Below are positions 12,587 to 31,261 of a stretch of 64,000 bases of DNA, piece after piece. Source of the DNA: Sinomonas sp. R1AF57. Its GTDB lineage: Bacteria > Actinomycetota > Actinomycetes > Actinomycetales > Micrococcaceae. Within the stretch, counting starts at the first letter, position 1. Every line of letters begins with the position of its first letter. Location: NCBI RefSeq assembly GCF_002224485.1, contig NZ_CP022463.1, forward strand, positions 1,336,817-1,400,816. Reading direction: 5' to 3'. Position numbers and translations under genes: made by a program. Under the pieces are notes generated by a model that searched no databases, was not told the DNA's origin, and saw only the letters and a list, made by a program, of their open reading frames with translations.

Positions 12587-13492
12587 TCAGTATCGGCCGG
12601 GAACCTGGAAGTTGAACACGCCGGTGTCGAAGCGGTTGTACGCCTCGTAGTCGACCAGCTCGTAGAGGCGCGAGCGGGTCAGCATGTTCTCCACCTCGGC
12701 CTCCTGCGTTCCGTCCGCCCTGATGGTATCCAGCGTACGTTCTGCCGCCCCCATCGCAATGCGCAGGAGGGTGACCGGGTAGATCACGAGGTTCACGCCG
12801 ATCCCCGCGAGCTCGTCCCGGGTGAAGAGCCGGCTCTTGCCGAACTCTGTCATGTTGGCCAGGATCGGCACGTCGACGGCGCCCCGGATCGCCGCGAACT
12901 CCTCGAGGCTCGCCATGGCCTCGGGGAAGATCGCATCGGCCCCGGCGTCCACGAGCGCCTTGGCGCGCTCGACCGCCGCCTCAAGCCCGTCCGCGGCGCG
13001 CACGTCGGTGCGCGCCATGACGAGGAAGTTCGGGTCCCGGCGCGCGTCGGCCGCGGCGCGGATCCGCTGGAGGGCCGTGTCGAGGTCGACGACGGCCTTG
13101 CCGTCGAGATGGCCGCACCGCTTGGGATTGACCTGGTCCTCGATGTGGCAGCCGGCGAGTCCGGCGTTCTCAAGCTCCTGCACCGAGCGGGCCACGTTCA
13201 TGGCCTCGCCGAAGCCCGTGTCGGCATCCACGATGGCGGGCAGGTCGGTCATGCGCGCGATCTGCCCGGCGCGGGTGGCCACCTCGGTGAGCGTCGTGAG
13301 GCCGATGTCCGGCAGGCCGAGGTCGTTGGCCAGGACCGCCCCGGAGATGTACACCCCGGGGAACCCCTTCTCCTCGATCAGCCGCGCGGACAGCGGGCTG
13401 AACGCTCCGGGGAACTGCTGGAGCGTCCCGGAGGAGAGGATCTCGCGCAGCTTCACCCGCTTCTGCTCGGGCGTGGACTTCGAGTACAGCAT
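12587..13492 (-). CDS. prpB: 2-methylisocitrate lyase
   Basis: A 301-residue member of the PEP mutase/isocitrate lyase superfamily that cleaves 2-methylisocitrate to pyruvate and succinate. It shows the VDADTGFGEAMNVARSV metal-binding segment, HIEDQVNPKRCGHLDGK with the catalytic KRCGH loop, and the MARTDVRA motif. The ATG (13492) overlaps the prpD stop by one base (TGATG), which fixes the start against a long spurious upstream extension. The GTVLM-like sequence before it belongs to another frame of prpD. Confidence 0.94.
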   Translation of the reverse strand: MLYSKSTPEQKRVKLREILSSGTLQQFPGAFSPLSARLIEEKGFPGVYISGAVLANDLGLPDIGLTTLTEVATRAGQIARMTDLPAIVDADTGFGEAMNVARSVQELENAGLAGCHIEDQVNPKRCGHLDGKAVVDLDTALQRIRAAADARRDPNFLVMARTDVRAADGLEAAVERAKALVDAGADAIFPEAMASLEEFAAIRGAVDVPILANMTEFGKSRLFTRDELAGIGVNLVIYPVTLLRIAMGAAERTLDTIRADGTQEAEVENMLTRSRLYELVDYEAYNRFDTGVFNFQVPGRY

Positions 13493-15012
13493 CAGAACAG
13501 TCCCTTCGGGGCCGCGGCGAGGTCGATCACGCCGTCCTTCGCCACGATGTTGAGCGCGTCGAGTTCGCCCGCGCCGAGCTCGGGGAGGCGCTGGACCGCG
13601 TCGAGGAAGCGGTCGATCTCCTCCGGCGCCACGGCCTCGGCCGCGAGGTTGCGGAACTTGGCGATGTACTGCTCGCGCCCGAACGGGCGGGCCCCGAGCG
13701 GGTGCGCGTCGGCGACGGCGATCTGGTCCTCGATGACGGTGCCGTCGGTGAGCGTGATGACCACGGAGCCGCCGAAGGCCTTCTCGGAGATGTCCAGCGA
13801 GTGGTACCGGCGGGTCCACTCCGGGTCTTCCTCGGTGGTCACCTTGTGCCACAGGGCCACCGTGTCCGGCCGCCCGGCCCGCTCGGGCGAGTAGGAGTCG
13901 ACGTGGTGCCACGCGCCGTCCTGGAGGGCGACGGCGAAGATGTAGGGGATCGAGTGGTCGAGCGTCTCGCGGGAGGCCGTCGGGTCGTACTTCTGCGGGT
14001 CGTTGGCCCCCGAGCCGATGACGTAGTGCGTGTGGTGGCTCGTCCTGATGAGGATGCTCGCCACGTTCGCCGGGTCCGTCACCTCGGGGTGCTCGCGGTT
14101 CAGCTTCCGCGCCAGGTCGATCCAGGCCTGCGCCTGGTACTCGGCCGAGTGCTCCTTGGTGTAGGTGTCGAGGATGGCGCGCTTCGCCTCGCCGTCGGCC
14201 GGGAGCGGCACCTCGTACGAGGCGTCGGGGCCATCGAGGAGCCAGGCGATGACGCCGTCCTCGCCTTCGTAGATCGGCACGGGCGAGGTCTGGCCGCGCA
14301 TCGCCCGGTCCACGGCCTCGACGGCCATCTTGCCCGCGAAGGCCGGGGCGTGGGCCTTCCACGTCGAGATCTCGCCCTTGCGGGACTGGCGGGTCGCGGT
14401 CGTCGTGTGCAGGGCCTGGCCCACGGCCTGGAAGATCGTCTCGACGTCGAGGCCGAGCAGCGTCCCGATCCCCGCCGCAGCGGAGGGGCCGAGGTGGGCC
14501 ACGTGGTCGATCTTGTGCTTGTGCAGGCTGATGGCCTTCACGAGGTCCACCTGGATCTCGTAGCCGGTCGCGATGCCGCGGATGAGGTCGCGGCCGCTCG
14601 AGCCGACGTGCTGGCCCACGGCGAGGATCGGCGGGATGTTGTCGCCGGGGTGGGAGTACTCCGCCGCGAGGAACGTGTCGTGGTAGTCCAGCTCGCGCAC
14701 GGCCACCCCGTTGGCCCACGCGGCCCACTCGGGGGAGACCCGCTCGGTGACGCCGTACACGAGAGCGCCACGGCCGCCGGACGACGGCGCGTGGGCCAGT
14801 GCCTGCGCCCGCGCGGCGACGATCGGGCCGCGGTTGAGGGAGGCGATGGCGACGGAGGCGTTGTCGATGATGCGGTTGATGATCATCTCCGTCACCTCGG
14901 GCGTTACCTCGACCGGGTCGGCGGCGACCTTCGCGATCCTGTGCGCGAGCTGCTCCTCGCGCGGAAGGTTCTCTTCGCTCTTGTAGACGCGGACCTTATG
15001 CATCTCAACCAT
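13492..15012 (-). CDS. prpD: 2-methylcitrate dehydratase
   Basis: A 506-residue MmgE/PrpD-family dehydratase converting 2-methylcitrate to methyl-cis-aconitate. It has the family features [50 protein letters not shown] and [15 protein letters not shown]. The start [17 protein letters not shown] is chosen at 15012 because GAGG lies seven bases upstream; ATG 15003 is an alternative. It overlaps the GntR stop by eight bases, so regulator and pathway genes form one operon. Length is normal for PrpD. Confidence 0.95.
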
Positions 15013-15676
15013 GGGAGACCTCTCGGATGTGGGGGGTGGGAGTGGTGTGGGTGGACTTGATGTGGTTCAGGCTGTTGCTGAGGTGGACTGCGGTCGCGGC
15101 GGCCGCCAGGTGCGCGTTGCCGTCGGCAATGGCGGCGGCGATCGCGGCGTGCTCGGACGCCGCCTGCCTCAGCCGCGCGGCGTCGTCCTTCGCGAGGCGG
15201 CGCACCCGGGTGAGGTGGACGCGCAGGCCCTCGAGCGACTGCGCGAGGTAGGAGTTCCCGACCGCGGCGTCGATCGCCGCGTCGAGCTCTGCGGCGAGGG
15301 CGTAGTACTCGTGGCGCTGCGGGTCGTCGTCGTTCAGGAGCGCCGGCGCCGCCGCGAACCGGTCGCGCAGCACTGCGAAGAGCTCGCGGTCCCCCCTGAG
15401 CGCGGCGAGCGCGGCGGCCTTCGACTCGAGGGCCTCGCGGAGCTCGAAGAGCTCGTCGATGTGGGCCAGGGAGATGTCGCTCACGACGACGCCCCGCCCC
15501 CGCTGGGCGGAGGCCAGTCCCTCGGCGGTGAGCCTCGCGAGCGCCTCGCGCAGGGGAGTCCGCGAGACCCCCAGCCGCTCGGACTGCTCGACCTCGCCGA
15601 GCACGGTCCCGGGGGGCAGCCGCCACTCGACGATGTCGTCCCGGAGTGCCGCATAGGCGCGGTCGCTGGCCTTCAT
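15005..15676 (-). CDS. GntR-family (FCD) transcriptional regulator of the prp locus
   Basis: A 223-residue regulator with an N-terminal winged helix (residues 1-70, ending [20 protein letters not shown] plus the wing GRGVVVSDI) and a C-terminal FCD ligand domain ([18 protein letters not shown] onward). FCD regulators of the FadR subfamily usually bind small carboxylates. It is the first gene of the prp operon and its stop lies inside prpD. The ATG has GAGAGGAG upstream. Two TGTATACA sites in front of it suggest autoregulation, possibly with 2-methylcitrate or propionate as effector (inference). It is not the sigma-54 type PrpR of enterobacteria. Confidence 0.88.
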
Positions 15677-15711
15677 GACACTCCTCTCGACGGGTGGCCG
15701 GATTTACCTCT

Positions 15712-15783
15712 GTGTATACATTCGCAGGGGCTCGGCGTGAAAGCAAGCGTTGTGGCAGGGCAAGTCGCTTTGGATGTATACAC
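15712..15783. promoter_or_regulatory. Two TGTATACA operators between divergent prp operon and prpE
   Basis: GTGTATACAT at 15712-15721 and its exact reverse complement ATGTATACAC at 15774-15783 share the self-complementary core TGTATACA. The two cores start 62 bases apart, about six helical turns, on the same face of the helix. They sit 36 bases before the GntR start and 69 before prpE. The sequence matches the general TGT-N-ACA style of FadR/FCD regulator sites, so the adjacent GntR protein is the likely ligand. Confidence 0.7.
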
Positions 15784-15851
15784 GAACCCTTGTGGGCCGC
15801 CCGTCCGGTCCCCTACGCTGGGGGCATCACGACGAAGTGAGGAGCACCACA

Positions 15852-17810
15852 GTGACGCAGGGGACGACGCAGGGTACGGGGACGACGCCGGGGACCGGGG
15901 AGCAACCAGCCGCGGCCCAGGGGACCGGCACATACGAGCGCCTGTACAGGCGCAGCCTCGAGGACCGCGAGGGCTTCTGGCTCGAGGCCGCGGATTCGAT
16001 CGCGTGGACCACTCGGCCCACCGCAGCGCTGGATGCCGGCGAGCGCCCGCTGTACCGCTGGTTCCCGGGCGGCGAGCTGAACACCTGCTACAACGCGCTC
16101 GACCGCCATGTGGAGGCCGGGCGGGGCGCGGACGCCGCCCTCGTCTACGACTCGGCTGCCCTCGGCACGCAGCGTGTGTACACCTACGCCGAATTGACCG
16201 ACCTCGTCGCCCGGTTCGCCGGGGCCCTGCGGAGCCTGGGCGTCGGCAAGGGCGACCGCGTGGTCCTCTACCTGCCGATGATCCCCGAGGCCGTGATCTC
16301 GATGCTCGCGTGCGCGCGCCTCGGCGCAGTCCATTCGGTCGTGTTCGGCGGCTTCGCGCCGCGCGAGCTCGCCGCCCGGATCGCCGACGCGCGCCCGAAG
16401 CTCATCGTGACGGCCAGCGGCGGCATCGAGCCGAACCGCCGGGTCGAGTACCTTCCCGCCGTCGAGGAGGCCCTCGAGGTCGCCGGCGTGCCCGATCTCC
16501 CGGTCGTCGTCGTGCCCCGCGAGGGCTTCGGCCATACGCTCGCCGACTACCCCGGCTGGCTCGGCTTCGACGAGGCCCTCGCCGGTGCCGACCCCGTCGC
16601 CCCGGTGCCTGTGGCGGCGTCGGACCCGCTGTACATCCTCTACACCTCAGGGACCACCGGCACGCCGAAGGGCGTGCAGCGCGACAACGGGGGGCACGCG
16701 GTGGCCCTCTCGTGGACCATGCGCAGCCTCTACGGGGTCGGCCCGGGGGAGGTGATGTGGACCGCCTCCGACGTCGGCTGGGTCGTGGGCCACTCGTACA
16801 TCGTCTACGGCCCGCTCCTGGCGGGAGCGACGACGGTCCTGTACGAGGGCAAGCCGGTCGGCACACCCGACGCGGGGGCGTTCTGGAGGGTCGTGCAGGA
16901 CCACCGCGTCAAGGTCCTCTTCACGGCGCCGACGGCGCTGAGGGCCATCCGCCGCGCGGACCCGGAGCTCGGGCTGCTTGCCGGATACGACGTCTCGTCC
17001 CTGGTGCGGCTCTACGCGGCGGGGGAGCGGCTCGACCCGGAGACGTACCGCTGGGCGGGGGAGAAGCTCGGCATCCCCGTCGTGGACCACTGGTGGCAGA
17101 CCGAGACGGGCTGGGCGATCTGCGGGAACCCGGCCGGAGTCGAGGAGCTGCCGCTCAAGGCGGGCTCGCCCTCACTGCCCATGCCCGGCTACGAGCTCGA
17201 GATCCTCGACGGGGCCGGCGCCCCGCTGGGACCGGGCGAGGAGGGGAACATCGCGCTGCGGCTGCCCCTGCCGCCCGGCACGCTCACGACCCTGTGGCAC
17301 AACGATGAGCGGTTCGTCGCCTCGTACCTCTCTGCCTTCCCGGGCTTCTACGCCACCGGCGACTCGGGCTACCGCGACCCCGACGGGTACGTCTACGTCA
17401 TGGGGCGCACCGACGACATCATCAACGTCGCCGGCCACCGCCTCTCGACCGGGGCCATCGAGGCCGTCCTGGCCCGTCATCCGGCCGTCGCCGAGTGCGC
17501 CGTCATCGGACTCAAGGACCAGCTCAAGGGGCAGCGGGCTGTCGGCTTCGTCGTGCTCAAGGCCGGAGTGTCCGTCCCCGGGGACCAGCTCGCGGCCGAG
17601 CTCGTGGCGCTCGTGCGGCGCGAGGTCGGGCCGGTGGCCGACTTCAAGCAGGCGGTCGTCGTGGACGCCCTGCCCAAGACCCGCTCGGGGAAGATCCTGC
17701 GCAAGACCATGCGCCAGATCGCCGATGGGGAGGACTACGCCGTCCCGTCGACGATCGAGGATGCCACGGTCATCGACCGCCTCGTGCCGGTCCTGACCCA
17801 GCGGACATGA
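15852..17810 (+). CDS. prpE: AMP-forming propionyl-CoA (acyl-CoA) synthetase
   Basis: A 652-residue acetyl/propionyl-CoA synthetase of the ANL superfamily. It has the P-loop-like YILYTSGTTGTPKGVQRD, VVDHWWQTETGWAICGNP, the hinge region MGRTDDIINVAGHRLSTGAI, and the acetylatable lysine motif RSGKILRKTMRQIADG. The QRDNGGHAVAL stretch and the prp neighbours favour propionate over acetate; substrate is inferred. The GTG start has GAGGAG eight bases upstream. An alternative TTG near 15750 would run through the operators and is rejected. The first 30 residues are Thr/Gly/Gln-rich filler. Confidence 0.85.
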   Translation: MTQGTTQGTGTTPGTGEQPAAAQGTGTYERLYRRSLEDREGFWLEAADSIAWTTRPTAALDAGERPLYRWFPGGELNTCYNALDRHVEAGRGADAALVYDSAALGTQRVYTYAELTDLVARFAGALRSLGVGKGDRVVLYLPMIPEAVISMLACARLGAVHSVVFGGFAPRELAARIADARPKLIVTASGGIEPNRRVEYLPAVEEALEVAGVPDLPVVVVPREGFGHTLADYPGWLGFDEALAGADPVAPVPVAASDPLYILYTSGTTGTPKGVQRDNGGHAVALSWTMRSLYGVGPGEVMWTASDVGWVVGHSYIVYGPLLAGATTVLYEGKPVGTPDAGAFWRVVQDHRVKVLFTAPTALRAIRRADPELGLLAGYDVSSLVRLYAAGERLDPETYRWAGEKLGIPVVDHWWQTETGWAICGNPAGVEELPLKAGSPSLPMPGYELEILDGAGAPLGPGEEGNIALRLPLPPGTLTTLWHNDERFVASYLSAFPGFYATGDSGYRDPDGYVYVMGRTDDIINVAGHRLSTGAIEAVLARHPAVAECAVIGLKDQLKGQRAVGFVVLKAGVSVPGDQLAAELVALVRREVGPVADFKQAVVVDALPKTRSGKILRKTMRQIADGEDYAVPSTIEDATVIDRLVPVLTQRT

Positions 17811-20349: not shown

Positions 20350-20409
20350 TTGACACATCAATTATGCCCATGTTCTAGTTGAACCATCAAGTTTTGATTG
20401 ATGCGTCAA
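20350..20409. promoter_or_regulatory. Three TTGA-N4-TCAA operator candidates for MarR regulator
   Basis: TTGACACATCAA (20350-20361), TTGAACCATCAA (20379-20390) and TTGATGCGTCAA (20398-20409) all fit TTGA-N4-TCAA. They occupy the 103 bases between the divergent marR and FMN reductase starts. Starts of successive sites are 29 and 19 bases apart. The last ends 14 bases before the reductase ATG, where binding would block ribosome or polymerase access. The spacing and symmetry fit MarR dimers. Confidence 0.7.
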
Positions 20410-20423
20410 CAAGGAGAGACCCT

Positions 20424-21002
20424 ATGACCAAGATCGCCGTCGTCACTGGCAGCACCCGCCCCGGCCGCAACAACCGCCAGGTCGCCGAGTGGGTCCTCGA
20501 GCGCGCCCGGCAGCAGAAGCCCGAGGTGGAGTTCGAGCTCGTCGACATCGCCGACTACAGCCTCCCGCTCCTGAACGAGGCCATGCCCGCTGCCTACCAG
20601 TCGTACAGCAACGAGTCCACCAAGGAGTTCTCGGCCCGCATCGACGAGTTCGACGGCTACATCTTCATCTCCCCCGAGTACAACCACTCGGTCGCGCCAG
20701 CACTCGCCAACGCGCTCTCGTACCTCAACGCCGAGTTCGCCAACAAGGCCGCCGGCATCGTCTCCTACGGTTCGGCCTTCGGCGTGCGCGCCGTCGAGCA
20801 CCTCCGCGGCATCCTCTCGGAGCTCCAGGTCGCCCACGTCCAGAAGACCGGCATGTTCTCGCTCTTCAGCGACTTCGAGAACTTCTCCGTGTTCAAGCCC
20901 ACCGAGATGCAGGCCGCCTCGGTCGACCCGATGCTCGACCAGCTCGTGGTCTGGACCAAGGCCCTCGAGTCGGTCCGGGCTTCCCTCAACGTGGCCGTCT
21001 GA
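20424..21002 (+). CDS. NAD(P)H-dependent FMN/quinone reductase
   Basis: A 192-residue flavodoxin-fold reductase of the NADPH-dependent FMN reductase family. The FMN phosphate loop is GSTRPGRNNRQVAEWV and the isoalloxazine-contacting segment is SPEYNHSVAPALANALSYLN. Such enzymes reduce quinones, azo dyes or FMN in the cytoplasm. The ATG 20424 has AAGGAGA eight bases upstream; a TTG 45 bases further up lies inside an operator and is rejected. Control by the divergent MarR protein would fit an electrophile or quinone response (inference). Confidence 0.87.
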   Translation: MTKIAVVTGSTRPGRNNRQVAEWVLERARQQKPEVEFELVDIADYSLPLLNEAMPAAYQSYSNESTKEFSARIDEFDGYIFISPEYNHSVAPALANALSYLNAEFANKAAGIVSYGSAFGVRAVEHLRGILSELQVAHVQKTGMFSLFSDFENFSVFKPTEMQAASVDPMLDQLVVWTKALESVRASLNVAV

Positions 21003-21030
21003 CCCTTCCCCTTTCCAGACAGCCAGCGCG

Positions 21031-21081
21031 CGACGGCGGCATCTGGGTGAGCTCATGAGGCTCACCCGGGTGCCGCCGTCG
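21031..21081 (+). terminator. Intrinsic-type terminator after FMN reductase
   Basis: Outer stem CGACGGCGGCA (21031-21041) pairs with TGCCGCCGTCG (21071-21081). An inner stem GGGTGAGC pairs with GCTCACCC around a TCATGAG loop. No T-run follows. Confidence 0.7.
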
Positions 21082-21175
21082 TGCGTGTCGGGGCCGTGGG
21101 GCATAGCCGTCGGCGGTGCAGGCCAGCGAGGATGGTCGGGGCGGCCACCGTGGGCGCCGAGAAAGGGAGTGAACC

Positions 21176-22024
21176 ATGCAGATCGCACTCACCGGCGGAA
21201 GCGGGAAGCTCGGGCGGGCAGTGGTCGAGCACCTCCGCAGCGCCGGGCACACCGTATGGAACCTCGACACGGTGGGGGAGCGCGGCCCGGGCTACGTGCG
21301 CATCGACCTCACCGACTACGGCCAGGTCGCCGACGCGCTCGCGGGCATCGACGACCGCCACAGCGGGGTCGACGCCGTCGTGCATCTCGCGGCCATCCCT
21401 GCCCCCGGGCTGGCCCCGGACGCCGCGACGTTCCGCAACAACATGCTCGCGACCTACAACGTGTTCCAGGCGGCCCGCCGGGCGGGCGTCAAGCGGATCG
21501 TCTATGCCTCGAGCGAGACCGTCCTGGGCCTGCCGTTCGACACGCCGCCTCCGTACATCCCGGTCGACGAGGAGTACCCCGCCCGACCCGAGAGCACATA
21601 CTCGCTGGTCAAGCACCTCGAGGAGCAGATGGCCATCCAGCTGTGCCGCTGGGACCCCGAGCTGAGCGTGAGCGCCTTCAGGTTCTCCAACGTGATGGTC
21701 CCGGCCGACTATGCAGCCTTCCCGGGCTTCGACGCCGACCCGCGTGGGCGCAAGTGGAACCTCTGGGGATACATAGACGCGCGCGACGGCGCGCAGGCGG
21801 TCGAGCGCGCGCTCGAGGGCGCCCGGCCGGGCTTCGAGGCGTACATCATCGCCGCTGCGGACACGGTCATGTCCCGCAGCTCCGCCGACCTCGCTGCCGA
21901 GGTGTTCCCCGGGGTGACCGTCACGAAGGAGCTCGGCGAGCACGAGACGCTCCTGTCCATCGACAAGGCCCGCCGCGTCCTCGGGTACGACCCTCAGCAC
22001 TCCTGGAGGGACGAGGTCGGCTGA
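21176..22024 (+). CDS. Extended SDR NAD-dependent epimerase/dehydratase (possible uronate dehydrogenase-like)
   Basis: A 282-residue Rossmann protein beginning MQIALTGGSGKLGRAVVEHL with the GxxGxxG nucleotide site at residues 7-13. The SDR active-site pattern is present as YASSETVLG and Tyr-x3-Lys in STYSLVKHLEEQ. The length and a short C-terminal domain resemble uronate dehydrogenases and related sugar epimerases. The next gene group starts with an ACS-type MFS transporter, a family that carries hexuronates and similar acids, so a sugar-acid role is possible but unproven. It is separated from upstream genes by a terminator. Confidence 0.8.
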   Translation: MQIALTGGSGKLGRAVVEHLRSAGHTVWNLDTVGERGPGYVRIDLTDYGQVADALAGIDDRHSGVDAVVHLAAIPAPGLAPDAATFRNNMLATYNVFQAARRAGVKRIVYASSETVLGLPFDTPPPYIPVDEEYPARPESTYSLVKHLEEQMAIQLCRWDPELSVSAFRFSNVMVPADYAAFPGFDADPRGRKWNLWGYIDARDGAQAVERALEGARPGFEAYIIAAADTVMSRSSADLAAEVFPGVTVTKELGEHETLLSIDKARRVLGYDPQHSWRDEVG

Positions 22025-22041: not shown

Positions 22042-22139
22042 TTAGGATCCCAAATTGGGATCCCAAATCCTTGACTGTGGTCTGGGACACTGCGTAAGCT
22101 CTCTCTTGGGATCCCAAATCGGAATCCCAAGAGAGAGCT
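22042..22139 (+). promoter_or_regulatory. Promoter flanked by paired TTGGGATCCCAA operators
   Basis: Four 12-base near-palindromes occur as two pairs: TTAGGATCCCAA (22042-22053) with TTGGGATCCCAA (22055-22066), and TTGGGATCCCAA (22106-22117) with TCGGAATCCCAA (22119-22130). Within each pair starts are 13 bases apart. A candidate promoter lies between the pairs: TTGACT (22071-22076), 18 bases, TAAGCT (22095-22100). The downstream pair is also embedded in a perfect 16-base inverted repeat (22097-22112 with 22124-22139, 11-base loop). This is a typical repression layout for the MFS-led operon; the GntR/FCD protein two genes on is the likely binder. Confidence 0.75.
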
Positions 22140-22223: not shown

Positions 22224-23558
22224 GTGTCCCTTCGAGAAGAAGCCACCGCCCCGCGGCCGCTCGCCAAGGATGGCGGGCAGCCCGCGCCCAAGCGCACCAG
22301 TGTGCGCTGGAAGCTGTTCATCCTGCTCCTGGTCCTGGTCACCGTGAACTACGTGGACCGAGGATCGATCTCCGTCGCGCTGCCGGTCATCCAGAAGGAG
22401 TTCGACCTCTCGCCTGAACTGGTCGGGCTCCTGCTCTCAGCCTTCTTCTGGACCTATGCGCTGATGCAGGTCCCCGTCGGCTGGCTCATCGACCGCTTCG
22501 GCCCGCGCAAGGTCATCACGGCCTCCTGCGTCGGCTGGGGCGCGGCCACAGCTGCGTCCGGCATGGCCGGCGGATTCCTGAGCATGTTCATCGCCCGCAT
22601 GGGCATCGGCGTCACCGAGGCCGGCATCATGCCGGCGGGCGGGAAGCTCAACGCCCTGTGGATGCACTCCAAGGAGCGGGGCCGCGGCGCCACGATCCTC
22701 GACGCGGGTGCCCCTCTCGGCGCCGGCGTGGGAGCCGTCATCATCACCTGGCTCATCAGCGCCGCCGGCGGCTGGCGCGCGGCATTCGTCATCGCCGGCA
22801 TTGCGACTGTCCTGCTCGGCGCGCTCACCTGGTGGTACATCCGGGACAATCCCCGGGCCCACAAGGCAGTCAACGAGGCGGAGGCCGAGTACATCGAGGC
22901 CTCGCACCGGGCCGAGGACGAGGCCGCCGGCGTGAACGGCGAGGCACGCCGCGCGCTCCTGCCCTACCTGAAGTTCCGCTCGTTCTGGGCGATGTGCCTC
23001 GGCTGGCTCGGATTCAACGGCGTCTTCTACGGCCTGCTGACCTGGGGCCCGCTCTACCTGTCCCAGGCCAAGGGGTTCGACCTGAAGACCATCGGGTGGT
23101 CCACGTTCGTGATCTTCGGCGCCGGGTTCGTCGGGGAGATCCTCGGCGGCACGCTCGCAGACAGGCTCCGTGCCCGCGGGCTGGGGGCGAACCTCGTGAT
23201 GCGGACGCTCCTGGGCATCTCGAGTGTGATCGTGGCCGGCGGGCTCGTCGGGGTCACGGTCGTCTCGGATCCGATCGCCGCGGTCGTGCTCCTCTCCGTG
23301 GTCCTCTTCTTCCTGCGGTGGGTGGGCCTGTTCTGGGCCGTGCCCGCGACGCTGGGCGGACGCACGAACGCAGGCGTCCTCGGCGGGGCGATGAACCTCA
23401 GCGGCAACATCGCCGGCTTCGTCACCCCGATCGCCGTGGGCTTCATCGTCGGCGCCACCGGGGGCTACACCTGGGCCCTCCTCTACTTCGTCGGCTCGGC
23501 GATCGTCATGGGGGTCTCGGTGCTCGCGCTCGACTACAGCAAGCGACTCCCCGTCTGA
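22224..23558 (+). CDS. MFS transporter, anion:cation symporter (ACS) family
   Basis: A 444-residue integral membrane transporter with about 12 hydrophobic segments. It begins with a 25-residue hydrophilic leader, then TM1 (LFILLLVLVTVNYVDRGSIS). The NYVDRGSISVALP segment and the loop GWLIDRFGPRKVI are typical of the ACS family (glucarate, galactonate, hexuronate, allantoate and phthalate carriers). The GTG has GGAGGA upstream. It leads the unassigned catabolic cluster and sits behind the TTGGGATCCCAA-controlled promoter. It therefore probably imports the cluster's organic-acid substrate. Confidence 0.87.
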   Translation: MSLREEATAPRPLAKDGGQPAPKRTSVRWKLFILLLVLVTVNYVDRGSISVALPVIQKEFDLSPELVGLLLSAFFWTYALMQVPVGWLIDRFGPRKVITASCVGWGAATAASGMAGGFLSMFIARMGIGVTEAGIMPAGGKLNALWMHSKERGRGATILDAGAPLGAGVGAVIITWLISAAGGWRAAFVIAGIATVLLGALTWWYIRDNPRAHKAVNEAEAEYIEASHRAEDEAAGVNGEARRALLPYLKFRSFWAMCLGWLGFNGVFYGLLTWGPLYLSQAKGFDLKTIGWSTFVIFGAGFVGEILGGTLADRLRARGLGANLVMRTLLGISSVIVAGGLVGVTVVSDPIAAVVLLSVVLFFLRWVGLFWAVPATLGGRTNAGVLGGAMNLSGNIAGFVTPIAVGFIVGATGGYTWALLYFVGSAIVMGVSVLALDYSKRLPV

Positions 23559-23566
23559 TCCCGGCT

Positions 23567-23601
23567 GTGCCCGGCCGGCGGGCTTGCCGCCGGCCGGGCA
23601 C
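23567..23601 (+). terminator. Hairpin after MFS transporter
   Basis: A perfect 15-base stem (23567-23581 with 23587-23601) encloses the loop GCTTG, nine bases after the stop codon. It may terminate or attenuate transcription between the transporter and its regulator gene. Confidence 0.7.
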
Positions 23602-23608
23602 CGCCCCC

Positions 23609-23625
23609 GTGGTCGAATGGACCAC
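23609..23625. promoter_or_regulatory. Inverted repeat GTGGTC-N5-GACCAC before GntR gene
   Basis: GTGGTC (23609-23614) and GACCAC (23620-23625) form an inverted repeat 51 bases upstream of the GntR/FCD start. FCD regulators often bind GGTC/GACC-like arms, so this could be an autoregulatory site different from the TTGGGATCCCAA sites. Confidence 0.4.
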
Positions 23626-23676
23626 AGCACGAACCGTCACGGCGGGCCGAGGCCCGTACTCACCTGAGGAGCGATC

Positions 23677-24324
23677 ATGGCACAGCCAGTCGAGGAGCCC
23701 GGCCGGGACCGCCCGCTGCGGGAGGTCATCCGCGACACGCTGCGCTCGCGGATCTTCGAGGGGTACTACGCCCCCGGGACGCGCCTCATCGAGCGGGACC
23801 TCGCCGGGGAGTTCAACGTCTCGAGGCTCCCCGTGCGCGAGGCCCTGCGCATGCTGCAGCAGGAGGGCCTGCTCGCTCCCCGCGCCACACGGGGCTCGGT
23901 GGTGGCCGGGCTCAGCGAGAAGGAGGTCGAGGACCTCTTCGACGTCCGGGCGTCCCTCGAGGTCCTCGCCTGCCGGCTCGCGTCCCAGCGCGCCACGCCC
24001 GAGGACGTGTCCCGCCTGGAGGCTCTCCTGGACCAGGCGTCGGATGCCCTGCGTCGCGGGAGCGTCCATGAGGCGCACCGGTTCAACAACGACTTCCACG
24101 ACGAGGTCACGGCGATCGCGGACAACGCGTTCCTCCGGACCGCGCTCGAGCCGCTCCAAGGGCGCATGCACTGGCTCTTCCGGCACGTGACCGACCTGCC
24201 TGAGCTCATCCAGGAGCACCGCGACCTCCTCGCCGCGATTGCCAGCGGCGATCCCGACGCCGCCGCAGCCCAGTCCGCACGGCACATCGGCAAGTACCGG
24301 GCGCAGTACCCGGACACCGTCTGA
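23677..24324 (+). CDS. GntR-family (FCD) transcriptional regulator
   Basis: A 215-residue regulator. The winged helix spans residues 10-78, with RDTLRSRIFEGYYAPGTRLI, DLAGEFNVSRLPVREALRML and wing RGSVVAGLSE. The FCD domain follows, with the likely metal-binding acid and histidines in FNNDFHDEVTAIADN, QEHRDLLAAI and SARHIGKY. It lies between the MFS transporter and the three catabolic genes, the usual place for a local repressor responding to a pathway acid. ATG 23677 is preceded by GAGGAG. Ligand unknown. Confidence 0.88.
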   Translation: MAQPVEEPGRDRPLREVIRDTLRSRIFEGYYAPGTRLIERDLAGEFNVSRLPVREALRMLQQEGLLAPRATRGSVVAGLSEKEVEDLFDVRASLEVLACRLASQRATPEDVSRLEALLDQASDALRRGSVHEAHRFNNDFHDEVTAIADNAFLRTALEPLQGRMHWLFRHVTDLPELIQEHRDLLAAIASGDPDAAAAQSARHIGKYRAQYPDTV

Positions 24325-24380
24325 CTATCCCGACACGGCCTCCGCGAGAGCGCTGGCCGTTCCCCTCAAGGAACCCGTAC

Positions 24381-25169
24381 ATGAGACTTCTGGTCATCAA
24401 CCCCAACATCAGCGAGGACGTGACCGCGCTGATCCGCTCGGAGGCGGAGCGGTCCGCAGCCCCCGCCACCGAACTTGTCGTCCGCACCGCGGGCCACGGT
24501 GTCGAGTACATCGAGACGCGCCTCGAATCGCTGATCGCCGCCGGCGCCGTGGCCGAGCTCATCGCTGAGCACGCCGGCCAGGTCGACGGCGTCGTGGTCG
24601 CAGCCTTCGGCGATCCGGGCATGCCCGCCCTCAAGGAACTCGCCGACGTCCCGGTGCTCGGGATCACCGAGGCAGCCCTCTGCGCCGCCGCGCTCCAGGG
24701 GCACCGGTTCTCGATCATCGCGATCTCGGACCGCATCACGGCCTGGTACCGCGACTGCGTCGAGCGGTTCGGCTTCGGCTCCCGGCTGGCGTCGATCCGC
24801 TCGATCACAGAGGCGCTGCGGGGCATCGGCAGCGTCCAGGAGGACTTCCGCCCGACGCTCGTCGAACTCGCGCGGCTGGCCGTGGCCGGGGACGGCGCCG
24901 ACGTCGTGATCCTCGCCGGTGCGCCGCTCGCGGGCCTGGCGCGCGAGGTCGCCGACGAGATCCCCGTTCCCGTCGTGGACGGCATCGGCGCCGGCATCCG
25001 GCTCGCCGAGGCCGTGGTAGGGCTCGCCTCGGGCCCCCACCGCGCGGGCTCGTTCGCTGCCCCGCCGCTGAAGCGGCGCACCGGCCTCTCGCCGGCGCTC
25101 GACGCCGCGCTCGACACGGCCCAGCTCGCAGCCGGCCGCGCGCCCCAGGGCGCGGGGAGCGTGCAGTGA
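24381..25169 (+). CDS. Asp/Glu/hydantoin racemase-fold protein lacking the cysteine pair
   Basis: A 262-residue protein of the hydantoin/allantoin racemase family, starting MRLLVINPNISEDVTALI. The family normally uses two cysteines, one in a CFGDPG-type and one in an LGCAG-type motif. Here these read AAFGDPG (Ala75 at the Cys position) and LAGAPLAG (Gly180 at the Cys position). The only cysteines are Cys101 and Cys126, outside those motifs. A classical two-base racemase mechanism therefore looks impossible, so it may be a decarboxylase, lyase or binding protein, or use another base. It overlaps the next start by one base (TGATG), so the two are coupled. Confidence 0.8.
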   Translation: MRLLVINPNISEDVTALIRSEAERSAAPATELVVRTAGHGVEYIETRLESLIAAGAVAELIAEHAGQVDGVVVAAFGDPGMPALKELADVPVLGITEAALCAAALQGHRFSIIAISDRITAWYRDCVERFGFGSRLASIRSITEALRGIGSVQEDFRPTLVELARLAVAGDGADVVILAGAPLAGLAREVADEIPVPVVDGIGAGIRLAEAVVGLASGPHRAGSFAAPPLKRRTGLSPALDAALDTAQLAAGRAPQGAGSVQ

Positions 25170-26638
25170 TGCCCGGCATTGCAGACCTCGTCATCGCCAA
25201 CGGTCTCGTGGTCAACGCGGATTCACGCCGGCTCGCCCATGTCGTGGTCGACGGCGGGCGGGTCACCGCCGTCGTCGACGCCGCCGAGCCAGTCCCCGCC
25301 GCCGAGCGCACCATCGACGCCGCCGGCCGCGCCGTCATCCCGGGAGGGATCGACGCCCACTGCCACGTGGCGCAGACCACCGGGCAGTGGAGCACCCTGG
25401 ACGATTTCGCCATCACCTCGGCAGCAGCGCTGTGGGGAGGGACGACGACCATCCTCGACTTCGGCATCCCGAGGGACTCCTCCGAAACCCCCCTAGAGGC
25501 GGCGAGGCACAAGCTGGCCCTCGCGGCGGAGTCCCGCTGCGACGTGGCCCTCCATGGGGCCGTCGTCGAGTGGGACGAGACCGTCCCCGCCCAGCTCGAG
25601 GAGCTCGCCGTCCTGGGAATCCGGTCCGTCAAGATGTACATGACCAACCGGGGATCCACGATGGCAGACGACGACACGGTGCTGCGGGTCATGCGCGAGA
25701 TGGTGCGGCTCGACGGACTCACCTACATCCACGCCGAGCACGACGCCATGATCGTCGACTGCACCCAGGAGCACGCCTCGGCAGGCCGGATCGGGATCGG
25801 GCACCTGCACGAGACCCGCCCGGAGCTCGCCGAGGAGGCGTCCGTCCGGGAGGTCCTCGCCCTGGCCGAGTACACGGGGGCCCCCGTCTACTTCGTGCAC
25901 CAGTCCACGCCCGGGGCGATCGACCTCGTGGCAGAGGCCCGCGCCCGGGGTCTGGACGCGCATTCCGAGACCTGCCCCCACTACCTCGTCCTCGACGACG
26001 GCGTCTACTCGTCCCAGTTCCCGCACTGGTACGCCTGCTGCCCGCCGATGCGCTCCCCCGAGACCGTCGCGGCGGTCCGCCGGCGCTTCGCCGACGGCTC
26101 CGTCCACACCGTCTCGAGCGACCATTCGTGCTACGACCTCACGCAGAAGCGCGGGCGGGCGGACGACGTCCGCCAGATGCCCCACGGCCTGCCCGGCGTC
26201 GAGACCCGCATGCCGGTGGCCTTCACGGCCCTCGCCGACGCGTGGGCGGACCGGGAGGCGCACGACGGCGCGCGGCTGCTCGAGCGGTTCGTCGACCTCT
26301 TCGCGGCCTCGCCCGCGCGGATCAACGCGATCCCCGGAAAGGGAACCATCGCTCCCGGCTACGACGCGGACCTCGTCGTCTTCGATCCTGCCGAGGCGCG
26401 GACGGTCGACAGCGCCGCCCTCCACATGGGCACCGACTTCTCGCCGTTCCACGGGCGCGTGCTGCGCGGGTGGCCCCACACCGTCGTCGCGGGCGGCCGA
26501 GTGGTCCTCGATGAGGACGGCTTCCACGACCCAGGCCCCGTCGGCCGGTTCGTGGAGCGGCGTGGCTACGCGGAATCCCGGGACGTATCCGGCACGGGCG
26601 TGCGCGTCCCCTCCATCGCCGACCAGAGAGGAAACTGA
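25169..26638 (+). CDS. Dihydropyrimidinase/hydantoinase-like cyclic amidohydrolase
   Basis: A 489-residue amidohydrolase-superfamily enzyme with the full binuclear metal set: His64 and His66 (IDAHCHV), carboxylatable Lys155 (SVKMYMT), His188 (YIHAEHD), His244 (YFVHQST) and Asp318 (SSDHS). This matches dihydropyrimidinases, which open 5- or 6-membered cyclic diamides. The CPHYL segment and the C-terminal DADLVVFDP are also typical. ATG 25169 overlaps the upstream stop; GTG 25166 is an alternative. With the neighbouring racemase-fold proteins it suggests degradation of a hydantoin, dihydropyrimidine or similar cyclic imide, but the substrate is not evident. Confidence 0.86.
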   Translation: MPGIADLVIANGLVVNADSRRLAHVVVDGGRVTAVVDAAEPVPAAERTIDAAGRAVIPGGIDAHCHVAQTTGQWSTLDDFAITSAAALWGGTTTILDFGIPRDSSETPLEAARHKLALAAESRCDVALHGAVVEWDETVPAQLEELAVLGIRSVKMYMTNRGSTMADDDTVLRVMREMVRLDGLTYIHAEHDAMIVDCTQEHASAGRIGIGHLHETRPELAEEASVREVLALAEYTGAPVYFVHQSTPGAIDLVAEARARGLDAHSETCPHYLVLDDGVYSSQFPHWYACCPPMRSPETVAAVRRRFADGSVHTVSSDHSCYDLTQKRGRADDVRQMPHGLPGVETRMPVAFTALADAWADREAHDGARLLERFVDLFAASPARINAIPGKGTIAPGYDADLVVFDPAEARTVDSAALHMGTDFSPFHGRVLRGWPHTVVAGGRVVLDEDGFHDPGPVGRFVERRGYAESRDVSGTGVRVPSIADQRGN

Positions 26639-26639
26639 G

Positions 26640-27365
26640 ATGCCCCAGACCGCCCGCCCCACCCGCATCGGGGTGATCGTGCCTTCGTCCAACACCTGCC
26701 TCGAACCGATGAGCTACCGCCTCCTCGGGGACCGCGAGGACGTCACGATCCATTCCACCCGCATCCCGGTGACGCGGATTGCGCTTGACTCCGGATCCGA
26801 CAGGCAGTTCGACGTCGGGGCCATGCGCTCCGCCGCAGAGCTCCTGGCCACGGCGGACGTCGACGTCATCGCCTGGAACGGCACCTCGGGGTCATGGCTC
26901 GGCGTCGGGCATGACAGGGAGATCGCCGCGGAGATCACGGCCGCCACCGGAATCCCGGCCACGACCTCCACGCTCGCCTACCTCGACGCCTTCGCAGCGT
27001 TCGGCATCGGGACCATCGGTCTCTTCACGCCGTACACGGCCGACGTGAACGAGCAGGTGATCGCCCGGTACGCCGAGGCGGGCGTGCGGACCAGCGGGCA
27101 TCGGGCGCTGGGCCTGAGCGACAACGAGTCCTTCGCGAGGGTCGCCCCGGAAGAGCTCGTCCCCGGCTCTCTCGAGCTCACCGCCGAGCGCCCGGACGCG
27201 CTGGTGTTCCTCTGCACCAACCTCTACGGGGCCCCGGTCGTCGCGGACCTCGAGTCGCGGACAGGGGTCCCGGTCCTCGACTCGGTCGCCGTCACGCTGT
27301 GGCGGTGCCTCGACATCGCAGGGGCGCCGCTCCTGGACCCGCGCTGGGGGAAGCTCCTCGCCTGA
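26640..27365 (+). CDS. Maleate isomerase/arylmalonate decarboxylase-family protein
   Basis: A 241-residue protein of the maleate cis-trans isomerase/AMDase fold: GVIVPSSNTCLEP at the N-terminus, LFTPYTADVNEQV (Tyr132), and LCTNLYG with Cys192 in the second catalytic loop. The first loop reads NGTSGSW, so Gly81 replaces the cysteine of maleate isomerases (CTSGS). Arylmalonate decarboxylase is known to have Gly-Thr-Ser here and a single catalytic Cys in the second loop, so decarboxylation is an alternative to isomerisation. The ATG follows the amidohydrolase stop by one base and closes the operon. Confidence 0.8.
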   Translation: MPQTARPTRIGVIVPSSNTCLEPMSYRLLGDREDVTIHSTRIPVTRIALDSGSDRQFDVGAMRSAAELLATADVDVIAWNGTSGSWLGVGHDREIAAEITAATGIPATTSTLAYLDAFAAFGIGTIGLFTPYTADVNEQVIARYAEAGVRTSGHRALGLSDNESFARVAPEELVPGSLELTAERPDALVFLCTNLYGAPVVADLESRTGVPVLDSVAVTLWRCLDIAGAPLLDPRWGKLLA

Positions 27366-28072: not shown

Positions 28073-28363
28073 CAGAGCACTCCTCCCTGCGCTGTCGGGT
28101 CCAATCATCATGACCCAACCATGATCGCAAATGACTGGGGCGCAGAGGCTGTGACCGGGCTGTGGAGTTGAGCACTCTGCCTGTGATTCTGGGGACTTTG
28201 ATCACTTCCCGCGCATGGCACCCGCGCGTACTCTGATCCGTGGATGTGGCGTTGTCAGGGAGCGGCAACGGGTCTCGCATACCGATCTCGGACTCGCCGC
28301 AGGGGGCGGAGCCTCCGGGGCCCGCGCTGCTGCGGGCGCGTTCATCAGTGATTGGGGTTGACC

Positions 28364-31261
28364 GTGGACACTCAGACGCCTTCGCACCCGGACCGGAGGA
28401 CACGGTTCCAGCCCTCCCAGAGGGGCGGCTCTGTCCGCAGGATGGCGGCGGCCGTCCTCGCCGCCGTCCTGGGCGCCGCTGCTCTCGTGGGGCTCCAGGC
28501 GCCGGCGCCGGCGCGGAGCGCCACCGCGTGCGCCAACGGGGACATGAACATCGTGGCCCATACCGACGACGACCTGCTCTTCCTGAGCCCTGACTTCATG
28601 CGGGACCTCGAAGTGGACCGCTGTTCCCTCACGGTCTTCACCACAGCGGGGGAGGCGGGCGAAGGTGCCTCCTACTGGCAGAGCCTCGAGGCCGGCATCC
28701 AGGCGACGTATGCGCAGATGGCCGGCAAGGCGAACTCGTGGGTCGACATCGATGACGGCATCGCCAACCGGGACATCGCGCGGTGGCAGCTGAGCGGTTC
28801 CAACATCCAGGTGATGTTCCTCCGCATCCCGGACGGCTTCCCGGACGGCTCGGGCAGCGACACCTACAACTACCAGAGCATCCTCAAGCTCTGGAACGGC
28901 ACGCTCAGCTCCGTCACACCGGTCGACGGCCGCGCGGCGTACACGAAGTCGCAGCTGGCCAGCATCCTGCTGCAGACCATGCAGTCCTTCAAGCCGACGA
29001 CGCTGCGCACCCAGGACTGGACCGGCTCCTACACCAATCCCTACGACCACAGCGACCACTGGGCGACGGCGAAGTTCGCGCAGCAGGCCAGCGCCTCCTA
29101 CACGGCGCCGCACACCCTCACCGGCTACGACGCGTACGTGATCGACGAGTACGCCCAGAACGTGTTCGACCCCGAGCTGACCAAGAAGGTGGACGCGTTC
29201 GTGACGTTCGCGGGCTACGACCACAACGTCTGCAACTCGCCGGGGGAGGGGTGCCCGGACTCGCCGTACAACGAGTGGCTCAAGCGCGAGTACCCCACTG
29301 CCATCCAGTGGACCAAGAACGCCGCCAAGGACTCCGGGACCACCGTCCAGGCCTCCTCCCAGGCGTCCAGCACCCAGAGCCCGGACCGCGCCCGCGACGG
29401 CTACGCGTGGGGCGCCCCCCAGGCTCCCGGGAAGGAATGGGTCTCCAACGGCGAGAAGACCGGCGCCTGGATCCAGTACACCTTCGGCTCGCCGACCGCC
29501 GTTTCGATGGTGAACCTGTTCGACCGTCCGCTCGCCGACCAGCAGGTCACGTCGGGCGTGCTCGACTTCTCCGACGGCACCTCGGTGCCGGTCGGCGCGC
29601 TCTACAACAACGGCGCCGGCACCACCGTGACCTTCCCGGGCCGGACCGTGACCTCGGTGAAGTTCACCGTCACCGGGGTAAGCCCGAGCACGACGGCGGC
29701 CGGCCTGGCCGAGTTCGAGGTCTTCAAGGGCGCCGACACCACGGCGCCGGTGATCACGGCGACGCCGCCTGGCGGCGCCTACCCCTCGGGCCAGACGGTG
29801 ACGCTGAGCTCCAACGAGCCGTCGACGACCATCCGCTACACCACGGATGGCTCGACACCGACAGCCACGAGCCCCACGTACACGTCGCCGATTCCGATCG
29901 GTTCCGGGCTGACGCTGAAGTACTTCGGCAAGGACGCCGCCGGCAACTCGTCCGCGGTCGCGACGCAGACGTACACCCTCGCGGATGACAAGACCCCTCC
30001 CACAGTCACCGCGGATCCGGTCGGCGGAGCGTACCCGGCGGGGACGCAGATCAAGCTCACGGCCAATGAGCCCGCGACGATCCGGTACACGACGGACGGC
30101 TCGGATCCCGTGACCGCAGGGACCACCTACACCGGGCCGATCTCACTCGATGCGGCTATGACGCTCAAGTACTTCGCGACGGACAGTGCCGGGAATGCCT
30201 CGGCAGTTGCCCAGCAGGTATACACGATCGCCGCCGACACGACACCGCCGACGATCACGGCGAACCCGGTGGGCGGCACGTATCCCTCGGGACAGCAGAT
30301 CACGCTGTCCTCCAACGAGGGCAACACGGCCATCTACTACACGACCGACGGCTCGACACCCACCACGGCCAGCACCCCGTACACCGGGCCGCTGACGCTG
30401 ACTCAGACGTTCACGCTCTCCTACTTCGGGAAGGACTTGGCGGGGAACACGTCAACCGTCCAGAGCCAGACCTACACGCTCCAGCCCAAGCCGGTCACAC
30501 CCTCCTGGCACGACTACACCGGCGACGGCTACGCGGACGTCCTCGCGGCGGACGGCGACCTCCTCAAGCTCTACAAGGGCGACGGCGCCGGCGGCATCGC
30601 GGCAGGCGTGCAGGTCGCCACGGGCTGGAGCGGGATGAACGCCACCATGACGCCGGGCGACTTCAACGGCGACGGCAAGAACGACGTCCTGGCCCGCAGG
30701 ACCAGCGATGGCGCCCTCTTCCTCTATCCCGGCAACGGTTCGGGCGGCTTCGGCACCCGGGTCCAGGTCGGCTGGGGGTGGAACGTCATGACGGCGGTCC
30801 TCTCGCCCGGCGACTTCGACGGCGACGGCAACAGCGACGTCCTGGCACGGGACAGCGGCGGCGCCCTGTGGCTCTACCCGGGTGACGGGACCGGCGGCTG
30901 GAAGTCACGCGTCCAGGTTGGCTGGGGCTGGAACGTCATGAACGCGATCGTCAGCGGCCGCGACTTCAACGGCGACGGCAAGAACGACGTCATCGCACGC
31001 GACACCAACGGCACCCTCTGGCTGTACCCGGGCGACGGGGCCAACGGCTGGCTCAGCCGCTCCCAGATCGCCACCGGCTGGGGGTCAATGACGGCGATCG
31101 CGGCTCCCGGCGACCTCACGGGCGACGCCAAGACCGACATCATTGCCCGAGACGGCAGCGGCGTCCTCTGGCTCTACCCGGGCACCGGCACCGGCGGCAT
31201 CGACGTGAACGGGCGCACGCAGCTCGCCACGGGGTGGGGTGCCTTGAAGTTCATCTCCTAG
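28364..31261 (+). CDS. Large secreted protein: PIG-L deacetylase, carbohydrate-binding, chitobiase-like and FG-GAP repeats
   Basis: About 965 residues. A basic leader (RRTRFQPSQRGGSVRR) and a hydrophobic segment (residues 27-45) form a signal peptide. The PIG-L (LmbE-like) metal-dependent deacetylase domain has AHTDDD (His66, Asp69) and HSDHW as zinc ligands. Next comes a discoidin/galactose-binding-like region (about residues 325-460). Three chitobiase/hexosaminidase C-terminal-type repeats follow (about 29750-30485), each with TTDGS and a YTxPI-like turn. The C-terminus has at least five FG-GAP-like repeats (GDFNGDGKNDVLAR, LWLYPGDG). It probably acts on N-acetylated glycans outside the cell. 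The start (GTG 28364 or TTG 28352) is uncertain. No sortase motif is seen. Confidence 0.85.
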   Translation: MDTQTPSHPDRRTRFQPSQRGGSVRRMAAAVLAAVLGAAALVGLQAPAPARSATACANGDMNIVAHTDDDLLFLSPDFMRDLEVDRCSLTVFTTAGEAGEGASYWQSLEAGIQATYAQMAGKANSWVDIDDGIANRDIARWQLSGSNIQVMFLRIPDGFPDGSGSDTYNYQSILKLWNGTLSSVTPVDGRAAYTKSQLASILLQTMQSFKPTTLRTQDWTGSYTNPYDHSDHWATAKFAQQASASYTAPHTLTGYDAYVIDEYAQNVFDPELTKKVDAFVTFAGYDHNVCNSPGEGCPDSPYNEWLKREYPTAIQWTKNAAKDSGTTVQASSQASSTQSPDRARDGYAWGAPQAPGKEWVSNGEKTGAWIQYTFGSPTAVSMVNLFDRPLADQQVTSGVLDFSDGTSVPVGALYNNGAGTTVTFPGRTVTSVKFTVTGVSPSTTAAGLAEFEVFKGADTTAPVITATPPGGAYPSGQTVTLSSNEPSTTIRYTTDGSTPTATSPTYTSPIPIGSGLTLKYFGKDAAGNSSAVATQTYTLADDKTPPTVTADPVGGAYPAGTQIKLTANEPATIRYTTDGSDPVTAGTTYTGPISLDAAMTLKYFATDSAGNASAVAQQVYTIAADTTPPTITANPVGGTYPSGQQITLSSNEGNTAIYYTTDGSTPTTASTPYTGPLTLTQTFTLSYFGKDLAGNTSTVQSQTYTLQPKPVTPSWHDYTGDGYADVLAADGDLLKLYKGDGAGGIAAGVQVATGWSGMNATMTPGDFNGDGKNDVLARRTSDGALFLYPGNGSGGFGTRVQVGWGWNVMTAVLSPGDFDGDGNSDVLARDSGGALWLYPGDGTGGWKSRVQVGWGWNVMNAIVSGRDFNGDGKNDVIARDTNGTLWLYPGDGANGWLSRSQIATGWGSMTAIAAPGDLTGDAKTDIIARDGSGVLWLYPGTGTGGIDVNGRTQLATGWGALKFIS

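Follow-up and report, generated by a model that had tools for sequence, protein, structure and literature searches.

Operons for hydantoin utilisation (hyu) are known in Arthrobacter and other bacteria, where they bring together a permease, a racemase-fold protein and a cyclic amidohydrolase. These three kinds of protein also stand side by side in a block of five genes (A to E) in a 64,000-nucleotide stretch of the Sinomonas sp. R1AF57 genome (contig NZ_CP022463.1, positions 1,336,817 to 1,400,816; hereafter the window). Unlike hyu operons, the block has no carbamoylase among its five genes and its racemase-fold protein lacks the cysteines; it also contains an additional enzyme of the AMDase/maleate-isomerase fold, an importer that we take to be of the anion:cation symporter (ACS) type, and an FCD regulator. 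We know of no counterpart of E in hyu operons. From the gene content, gene order, conserved residues and operator, all of which are read from the sequence, we infer the substrate class: the block would be an operon, induced by its substrate, for the catabolism of a small cyclic ureide of the hydantoin, dihydropyrimidine or nucleobase type, a reading to which we assign a probability of roughly 0.5.

A conserved five-gene block

The block is intact. Its five open reading frames (ORFs) occupy 22224-27365, all on the + strand, where the initial annotation had placed them, in an actinobacterial genome of 3.94 Mb. In a tree of D, the nearest named relatives of the window's protein were from Sinomonas. 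The genes are:

Gene A, 22224-23558, + strand: major facilitator superfamily (MFS) importer, likely an anion:cation symporter-type protein; MFS_1
Gene B, 23677-24324, + strand: GntR/FCD regulator; putative repressor that would act at the tandem operators
Gene C, 24381-25169, + strand: allantoin/hydantoin-racemase-fold protein (PF01177) with the catalytic cysteines replaced (Ala75, Gly180)
Gene D, 25169-26638, + strand: dihydropyrimidinase/hydantoinase-type cyclic amidohydrolase with H64, H66, K155, H188, H244 and D318; Asn160
Gene E, 26640-27365, + strand: AMDase/maleate-isomerase-fold enzyme with Gly81-Thr82-Ser83, Tyr132, Asn18, Asn162 and Cys192

D starts at the ATG at 25169 or, alternatively, at the GTG at 25166, in which case C and D overlap by 4 bases; a single base separates D from E, whose start is at 26640 and not at 26511. 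The top NCBIfam match of A was a "D-galactonate transporter" subfamily (265 bits, below the cut-off of 395). No N-carbamoylase was found among the five genes; the neighbouring genes were not scanned for one. The SDR and FMN-reductase genes just upstream (20379-22024) were rejected as members of the block, since among 12 loci they accompanied it only in L021-L023.

An orthologue of C with at least 82% identity was present in 12 of 15 same-genus genomes, the window's own included, and in one of 21 genomes from the family's other genera (65%). The eleven other same-genus neighbourhoods that we fetched sat, with the window, in at least three different chromosomal surroundings; one of them (G005) had B-C-D-E with no A within the 19 kb read. 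In G018, from another genus, A-C-D-E lay together with B divergent. A larger sample comprised the best 80 of 143 relatives in a genome collection, ranked by E in an E-alignment scan and hence not random, from Sinomonas, Arthrobacter, Pseudarthrobacter, Paenarthrobacter, Microbacterium, Zhihengliuella, Nocardia and Amycolatopsis. Four of these loci had B-C-D-E with A missing (L039, L040, L067 and L111), two were cut by contig ends (L047 and L092), and one contained E alone (L045). Many Arthrobacter loci had pca-like and transhydrogenase-like genes nearby, named by eye, which we take to be chromosomal background. Because the remaining 73 of the 80 loci hold all five genes, and the order A-B-C-D-E of the window is kept in 10 of the 11 other same-genus neighbourhoods, the five genes form a real, conserved unit whose co-occurrence is not chance. 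The search for the five families together that had been suggested at the outset thus found them staying together. The block is a conserved catabolic operon; the initial annotation was right in outline, with the families of C and E corrected below.

That annotation could match the block to no known pathway, and the literature and database searches made here likewise yielded none. We recognised no description of the cluster in the open-licence PMC literature, subscription papers lying outside that search. The UGTCase purine route was rejected as the pathway, its gene set, in the available part of PMC4016543, not matching. Arthrobacter hyuA is merely named, within a stress response, in the part of PMC9608346 that was available.

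Active sites of C, D and E

Protein C scored 146 bits against PF01177 (Asp/Glu/hydantoin racemase; cut-off 31), and its best PDB sequence matches were the allantoin racemases KpAllR 3qvk and 5lfd (118 and 116 bits), with which it shares the NPN motif. The racemase fold first assigned to it therefore stands. Its catalytic residues are a different matter. In KpAllR the catalytic cysteines are Cys79 and Cys184, and Thr118 and Thr119 bind allantoin (available part of PMC12661438). C differs from KpAllR in having Ala75 and Gly180 at the cysteine sites, which at least 97% of 74 orthologues share, and, by alignment, Ala114 and Ile115 in place of the threonines. With both cysteines and both allantoin-binding threonines replaced, we rejected C as an allantoin or hydantoin racemase. 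Among 13 distant plasmid loci with C-like proteins, 12 likewise had Ala and Gly at the cysteine sites; the exception, L178, had Gly and Cys. The L178 gene sits in what we take, from names given by eye, to be an allantoin cluster. Gly and Cys are also found in 5lfd, the allantoin racemase chain of P. fluorescens, be it in natural or in mutant form, and both sites are Ser in the aligned KpAllR chain, presumably an active-site mutant. Members of the fold with one cysteine may thus exist; C itself has none at either site. Two other racemase-fold genes came to light. The window's genome carries a distant C paralogue (36%; G000:C1:844325-845059) with one TGA inside its open stretch. In Sinomonas mesophila, a second racemase-fold protein with no cysteine at either site and a sugar-porter MFS lie just upstream of A (L021:10621-12838).

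Protein D belongs to the fold family of D-hydantoinase (1nfg) and dihydropyrimidinase, and all six of its metal-ligand residues (HxH, Lys, His, His, Asp, at the positions listed above) were present in at least 97% of 76 sequences. Together with the family matches of A and B, these ligands bear out the importer, the FCD regulator and the hydrolase with a complete metal site that had been proposed. Of the 58 NCBIfam models that D matched, 25 were shown, and it reached the cut-off of none of these, scoring 342 bits against D-hydantoinase (curated cut-off 393) and about 241 bits against allantoinase AllB (cut-off 358). It differs from 1nfg in having Asn160 in place of the substrate Tyr, which we take to be Tyr155 of D-hydantoinase, and His339 in place of Asn. 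A canonical allantoinase is encoded at another place in the window's genome (557 bits). In fact, 16 of 16 genomes encode, away from the cluster where they have it, an above-cut-off canonical allantoinase and a 2-oxo-4-hydroxy-4-carboxy-5-ureidoimidazoline (OHCU) decarboxylase; the cluster is missing from three of these genomes. For this reason D is not the organism's allantoin enzyme, and we rejected it as the genome's allantoinase.

The D-hydantoinase score of D, the PF01177 match of C and an NCS1 permease within the regulon (see below) would also suit an ordinary hydantoin-utilisation operon with a racemase, a hydantoinase and a transporter, whose carbamoylase is encoded elsewhere. Such an operon is hard to reconcile with a C protein that has lost both cysteines and the allantoin-binding threonines, with five genes that include no carbamoylase, and with Asn at the usual Tyr position of D. 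We consider it very improbable.

Protein E passed the Pfam Amdase gathering score (85.2 bits against 25.9) and also the Pfam Asp/Glu racemase cut-off. It did not reach the NCBIfam AMDase cut-off (83.7 bits against 225). Its best NCBIfam match was EutA of ectoine utilisation, at 124.6 bits far under the cut-off of 318, and the other four genes of the block are not of the eutB-E kinds; EutA itself has no assigned function in PMC3187862. The E motif was kept in at least 97% of 80 sequences and was complete in 16 of 18 distant relatives. Published criteria for AMDase, in the available part of PMC4996985, include Gly74, Thr75, Ser76, Tyr126, Cys188, Pro14-Pro15, Val156, Met159 and Gly189. The first five are all kept in E, as Gly81, Thr82, Ser83, Tyr132 and Cys192. 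The others, which belong to the binding pockets and the dioxyanion hole, are replaced: Pro14-Pro15 by Pro15-Ser16, Val156 by Asn162, Met159 by Phe165 and Gly189 by Thr193. The criteria further name Leu40, Val43 and Tyr48 of the hydrophobic pocket, which lie outside the stretch aligned here.

A structural model of E, predicted from 10 sequences (pLDDT 76.5, pTM 0.81), was closest to maleate isomerase (query TM-score 0.83-0.85, P. putida enzyme) and next closest to AMDase. Asn18, Tyr132, Asn162 and Cys192 align with residues of maleate cis-trans isomerase (4fq7, 2xed), whose Asn/Tyr/Asn residues lie around the diacid. Unlike that enzyme, E has Gly81 at the first of the two active-site cysteines, and we rejected it as a maleate isomerase on this ground. 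The family first given to E, maleate-isomerase/AMDase-like, holds as to the Pfam match and fails as to that cysteine and some of the AMDase residues. By its residues, E is a mixed site that combines the Gly/Thr/Ser/Tyr/Cys set of AMDase with maleate-isomerase-like Asn18 and Asn162 and has no second cysteine. It would carry out one-sided proton chemistry, with a small dicarboxylate-like acid as its substrate; the malonate- or maleate-type acid originally envisaged is plausible for this.

The tandem operator and its other settings

The region upstream of A contains an operator code that the initial annotation missed:

Upstream tandem operator pair, 22043-22065, no strand assigned: TAGGATCCCA-AAT-TGGGATCCCA
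Likely promoter, 22071-22100, + strand: TTGACT at 22071-22076 and TAAGCT at 22095-22100, 18 bp apart; read from the sequence
Downstream tandem operator pair, 22107-22129, no strand assigned: TGGGATCCCA-AAT-CGGAATCCCA, 64 bp from the first pair

The two pairs thus flank the likely promoter. The palindrome TGGGATCCCA was found upstream of A in all 73 regions compared (the window and 72 loci, one further locus being left out by a length filter). In the regions printed it was mostly paired, 13 bp apart, beside a TTGAC...TA promoter arranged similarly to that of the window. With up to two mismatches allowed, the tandem form was present in 9 of 12 whole genomes, at 14 sites of which 13 were at the cluster; at this setting none was found in the cluster-less G003 and G006, and the reversed pattern was found in none of the 12 genomes. 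With one mismatch allowed, 41 of 295 family genomes had the tandem form compared to 4 for the reversed pattern. We infer that B binds tandem TGGGATCCCA and represses the operon.

We fetched 20 operator sites, mostly from genomes with second sites or from other genera. Thirteen were at the cluster, in L201 and L202 between the cluster and a divergent MFS-amidase pair. Two were at an NCS1 permease (L196 and L200) and one lay before an MFS-amidase pair (L198). All three settings, cluster, MFS-amidase and NCS1, occurred in one genome, G402. In L040 of A. terricola, the place of A is taken by a divergent operon under the operator, one half of which has one mismatch here; the operon encodes a xanthine permease of the NCS2 type (463 bits, cut-off 414), a CynX-like MFS protein, an FAH protein and a cyanuric acid amidohydrolase (448 bits, cut-off 360). 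Further MFS and amidase genes stood upstream of B in L060, L087, L107 and L111, preceded by single palindrome copies, and A. celericrescens had a second tandem site, which lies next to what is left of an NCS1 permease gene and an MFS gene. The L092 NCS1 protein is related to the hydantoin permease Mhp1. It keeps the residues aligned with Mhp1 Trp117, Gln121 and Asn318 and has Phe near Trp220.

NCS1 and NCS2 permeases carry the same operator in other strains, which points towards a substrate resembling a nucleobase or hydantoin and supports a cyclic ureide of that kind. The initial annotation had proposed a cyclic imide or hydantoin. That idea gains indirect support from the operator-bearing NCS1 (Mhp1-related) and NCS2 permeases and from nine proteobacterial loci with C, E and a hydantoinase (see below). 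In a cyclic-imide pathway, D would convert an imide to a half-amide, an amidase would strip the amide, and E would isomerise a maleate-like acid. Amidases found under the operator in L198 and next to the block in further strains agree with this, as do a fold of E closest to maleate isomerase and the four residues shared with that enzyme. It is opposed by the Gly in place of the first cysteine: according to the title of 2xed, a Cys194-changed maleate isomerase still forms succinyl-cysteine, and the other cysteine is therefore the nucleophile. Moreover, ureides and nucleobases fit NCS1/NCS2 permeases better than imides do, and amidases of the protein group identified were present in just 10 of the 80 loci. 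We regard the imide pathway as scarcely more credible than an ordinary hydantoin operon.

Loci outside Arthrobacter and the proposed pathway

Twenty non-Arthrobacter plasmid loci were hand-picked from plasmid search matches; L178 is from Streptomyces and L155 from a cyanobacterium. C and E occurred together in 11 of them, nine of which also had a hydantoinase (L143-L147, L150, L151, L175 and L176), with Rhizobium L158 and L177 having C, E and an amidase. Orthologues of the A-type MFS importer (48-54%) were present in five loci, from Cupriavidus (two), Diaphorobacter, Paraburkholderia and B. glumae. Within the stretch read, seven of the remaining nine loci had E without C: six with another amidohydrolase, with a hydantoinase or amidase, or with an MFS gene alone, and the seventh, L156, with a degenerate E motif. 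C-like genes without E were found in L178 and L179. The proteobacterial hydantoinases share just 30-34% identity with D and retain the usual Tyr and Asn, so that D represents another subfamily occupying the equivalent position.

Further genes near C or E in the plasmid loci encoded DUF3830, FAH-family and RidA proteins, TRAP, TTT and ABC importers, and a BhcA-like aminotransferase (455 and 426 bits, cut-off 650). DUF3830 recurred beside proteobacterial clusters (L151:12013-12432, L152:12058-12465 and L158:10077-10493), and we found no paper naming it in the open-licence PMC literature. On a Methylobacterium nodulans plasmid (L145:18602-24190), a dihydroorotase-family gene with D's Asn/Arg at 160/161 adjoins two MmgE/PrpD genes. 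In Allorhizobium pseudoryzae (L179:10001-11498), two neighbouring racemase-fold genes that lack the cysteines are accompanied by an amidase gene, a hydantoinase gene and one of the polysaccharide-deacetylase type.

Some loci point towards urate. Genes for OHCU decarboxylase and 5-hydroxyisourate (HIU) hydrolase lay directly upstream of A in 10 of the 80 loci, and in the nine genomes of this type tested the cluster-side OHCU decarboxylase was the sole one in the genome. In Defluviimonas, an independent case, C, E and a hydantoinase lie near PuuD, UraD and HIU hydrolase. In Salipiger and Allorhizobium, C has a neighbour of the polysaccharide-deacetylase type, which we assume to be PuuE-like. These neighbours, along with the xanthine-type permease under the operator in L040, would be explained if the operon handled a side product of urate or allantoin, such as an oxidised or carboxylated hydantoin, and if C, D and E were retuned relatives of allantoin enzymes. 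On the tree of D, with 9 of the 10 loci included, the OHCU/HIU label needs just three changes, of which starred branches force two. The neighbourhood may therefore reflect one or two events, or one event followed by exchange. The canonical allantoinase and OHCU decarboxylase elsewhere in all 16 genomes also speak against a urate role. We hold this explanation to be unlikely, if the most credible of the three alternatives, and keep the neighbourhood as a lead.

For the preferred reading, a catabolic operon for a small cyclic ureide, we propose the following steps, including repression by B. A would take up the compound, as NCS1, NCS2 or other permeases would in other strains. D would open the ring at its binuclear metal site to give a ureido or amide acid. 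E would act on this acid, one carboxylate of which would sit in a dioxyanion hole of Thr82, Ser83 and Tyr132, with Asn18 and Asn162 holding a second polar group. Cys192 alone would give or take the proton at the enediolate; as sole proton donor or acceptor it would make the step one-sided, a substituted-malonate decarboxylation or a lyase reaction, and not a racemisation. C, lacking cysteine at both sites, would carry out a non-racemase step on the same kind of molecule, and an amidase might complete the breakdown in some strains. B, sitting on the tandem TGGGATCCCA sites that flank the promoter, would repress the operon and come off once the inducer is present.

We judge the chances evenly balanced that these parts make up an undescribed ring-degradation pathway that crosses phyla. 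Two racemase-fold enzymes rebuilt side by side, of which one would use its lone cysteine in a decarboxylase or lyase step and the other is cysteine-free, would partner a hydantoinase-type ring opener, and in Actinobacteria a dedicated tandem TGGGATCCCA regulon would swap permeases between strains.

Several observations weigh against the preferred reading. Asn162 of E stands at a hydrophobic pocket residue of AMDase, which speaks against a plain AMDase reaction. The low identity between D and the proteobacterial hydantoinases and their difference at the substrate Tyr/Asn positions mean that the ring may differ between phyla, and in Rhizobium L158 and L177 there was no hydantoinase in the stretch read. 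The operator is also less regular than the cluster. G018 has the cluster yet no tandem form, only a single palindrome copy; the cluster-bearing same-genus genomes G004, G008 and G013 showed no tandem at one mismatch; and the tandem operator was found in none of the 20 non-Arthrobacter plasmid loci. Four of the 20 fetched sites (L203, L205, L207 and L208) adjoin unrelated genes. The NCS1 site of L196 adjoins a B paralogue (58%), so this link may belong to another regulator, and in L200 the called NCS1 start is upstream of the operator; the site precedes the gene there only if a later start is used, as in L196.

The block marks a nitrogen-ring compound that is apparently a nutrient common to soil actinobacteria and proteobacteria, and the operator and few genes are a clean handle for finding it. 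If C and E act as proposed, the Asp/Glu racemase fold gains a cysteine-free catabolic member, and E becomes a small-diacid relative of the cofactor-free decarboxylase AMDase, of use in biocatalysis.

Elsewhere in the window, positions 12587-17810 hold what looks, from the translations, like a propionate (methylcitrate) cluster; it has a GntR regulator of its own and adjoins an acyl-CoA synthetase. A 5S rRNA gene lies at the window start (17-133). Downstream of the block, 28352-31261 encodes a large predicted PIG-L-type deacetylase whose unusual multidomain make-up combines DUF7402 / F5-8 type C with FG-GAP repeats and three chitobiase-C-terminal repeats.

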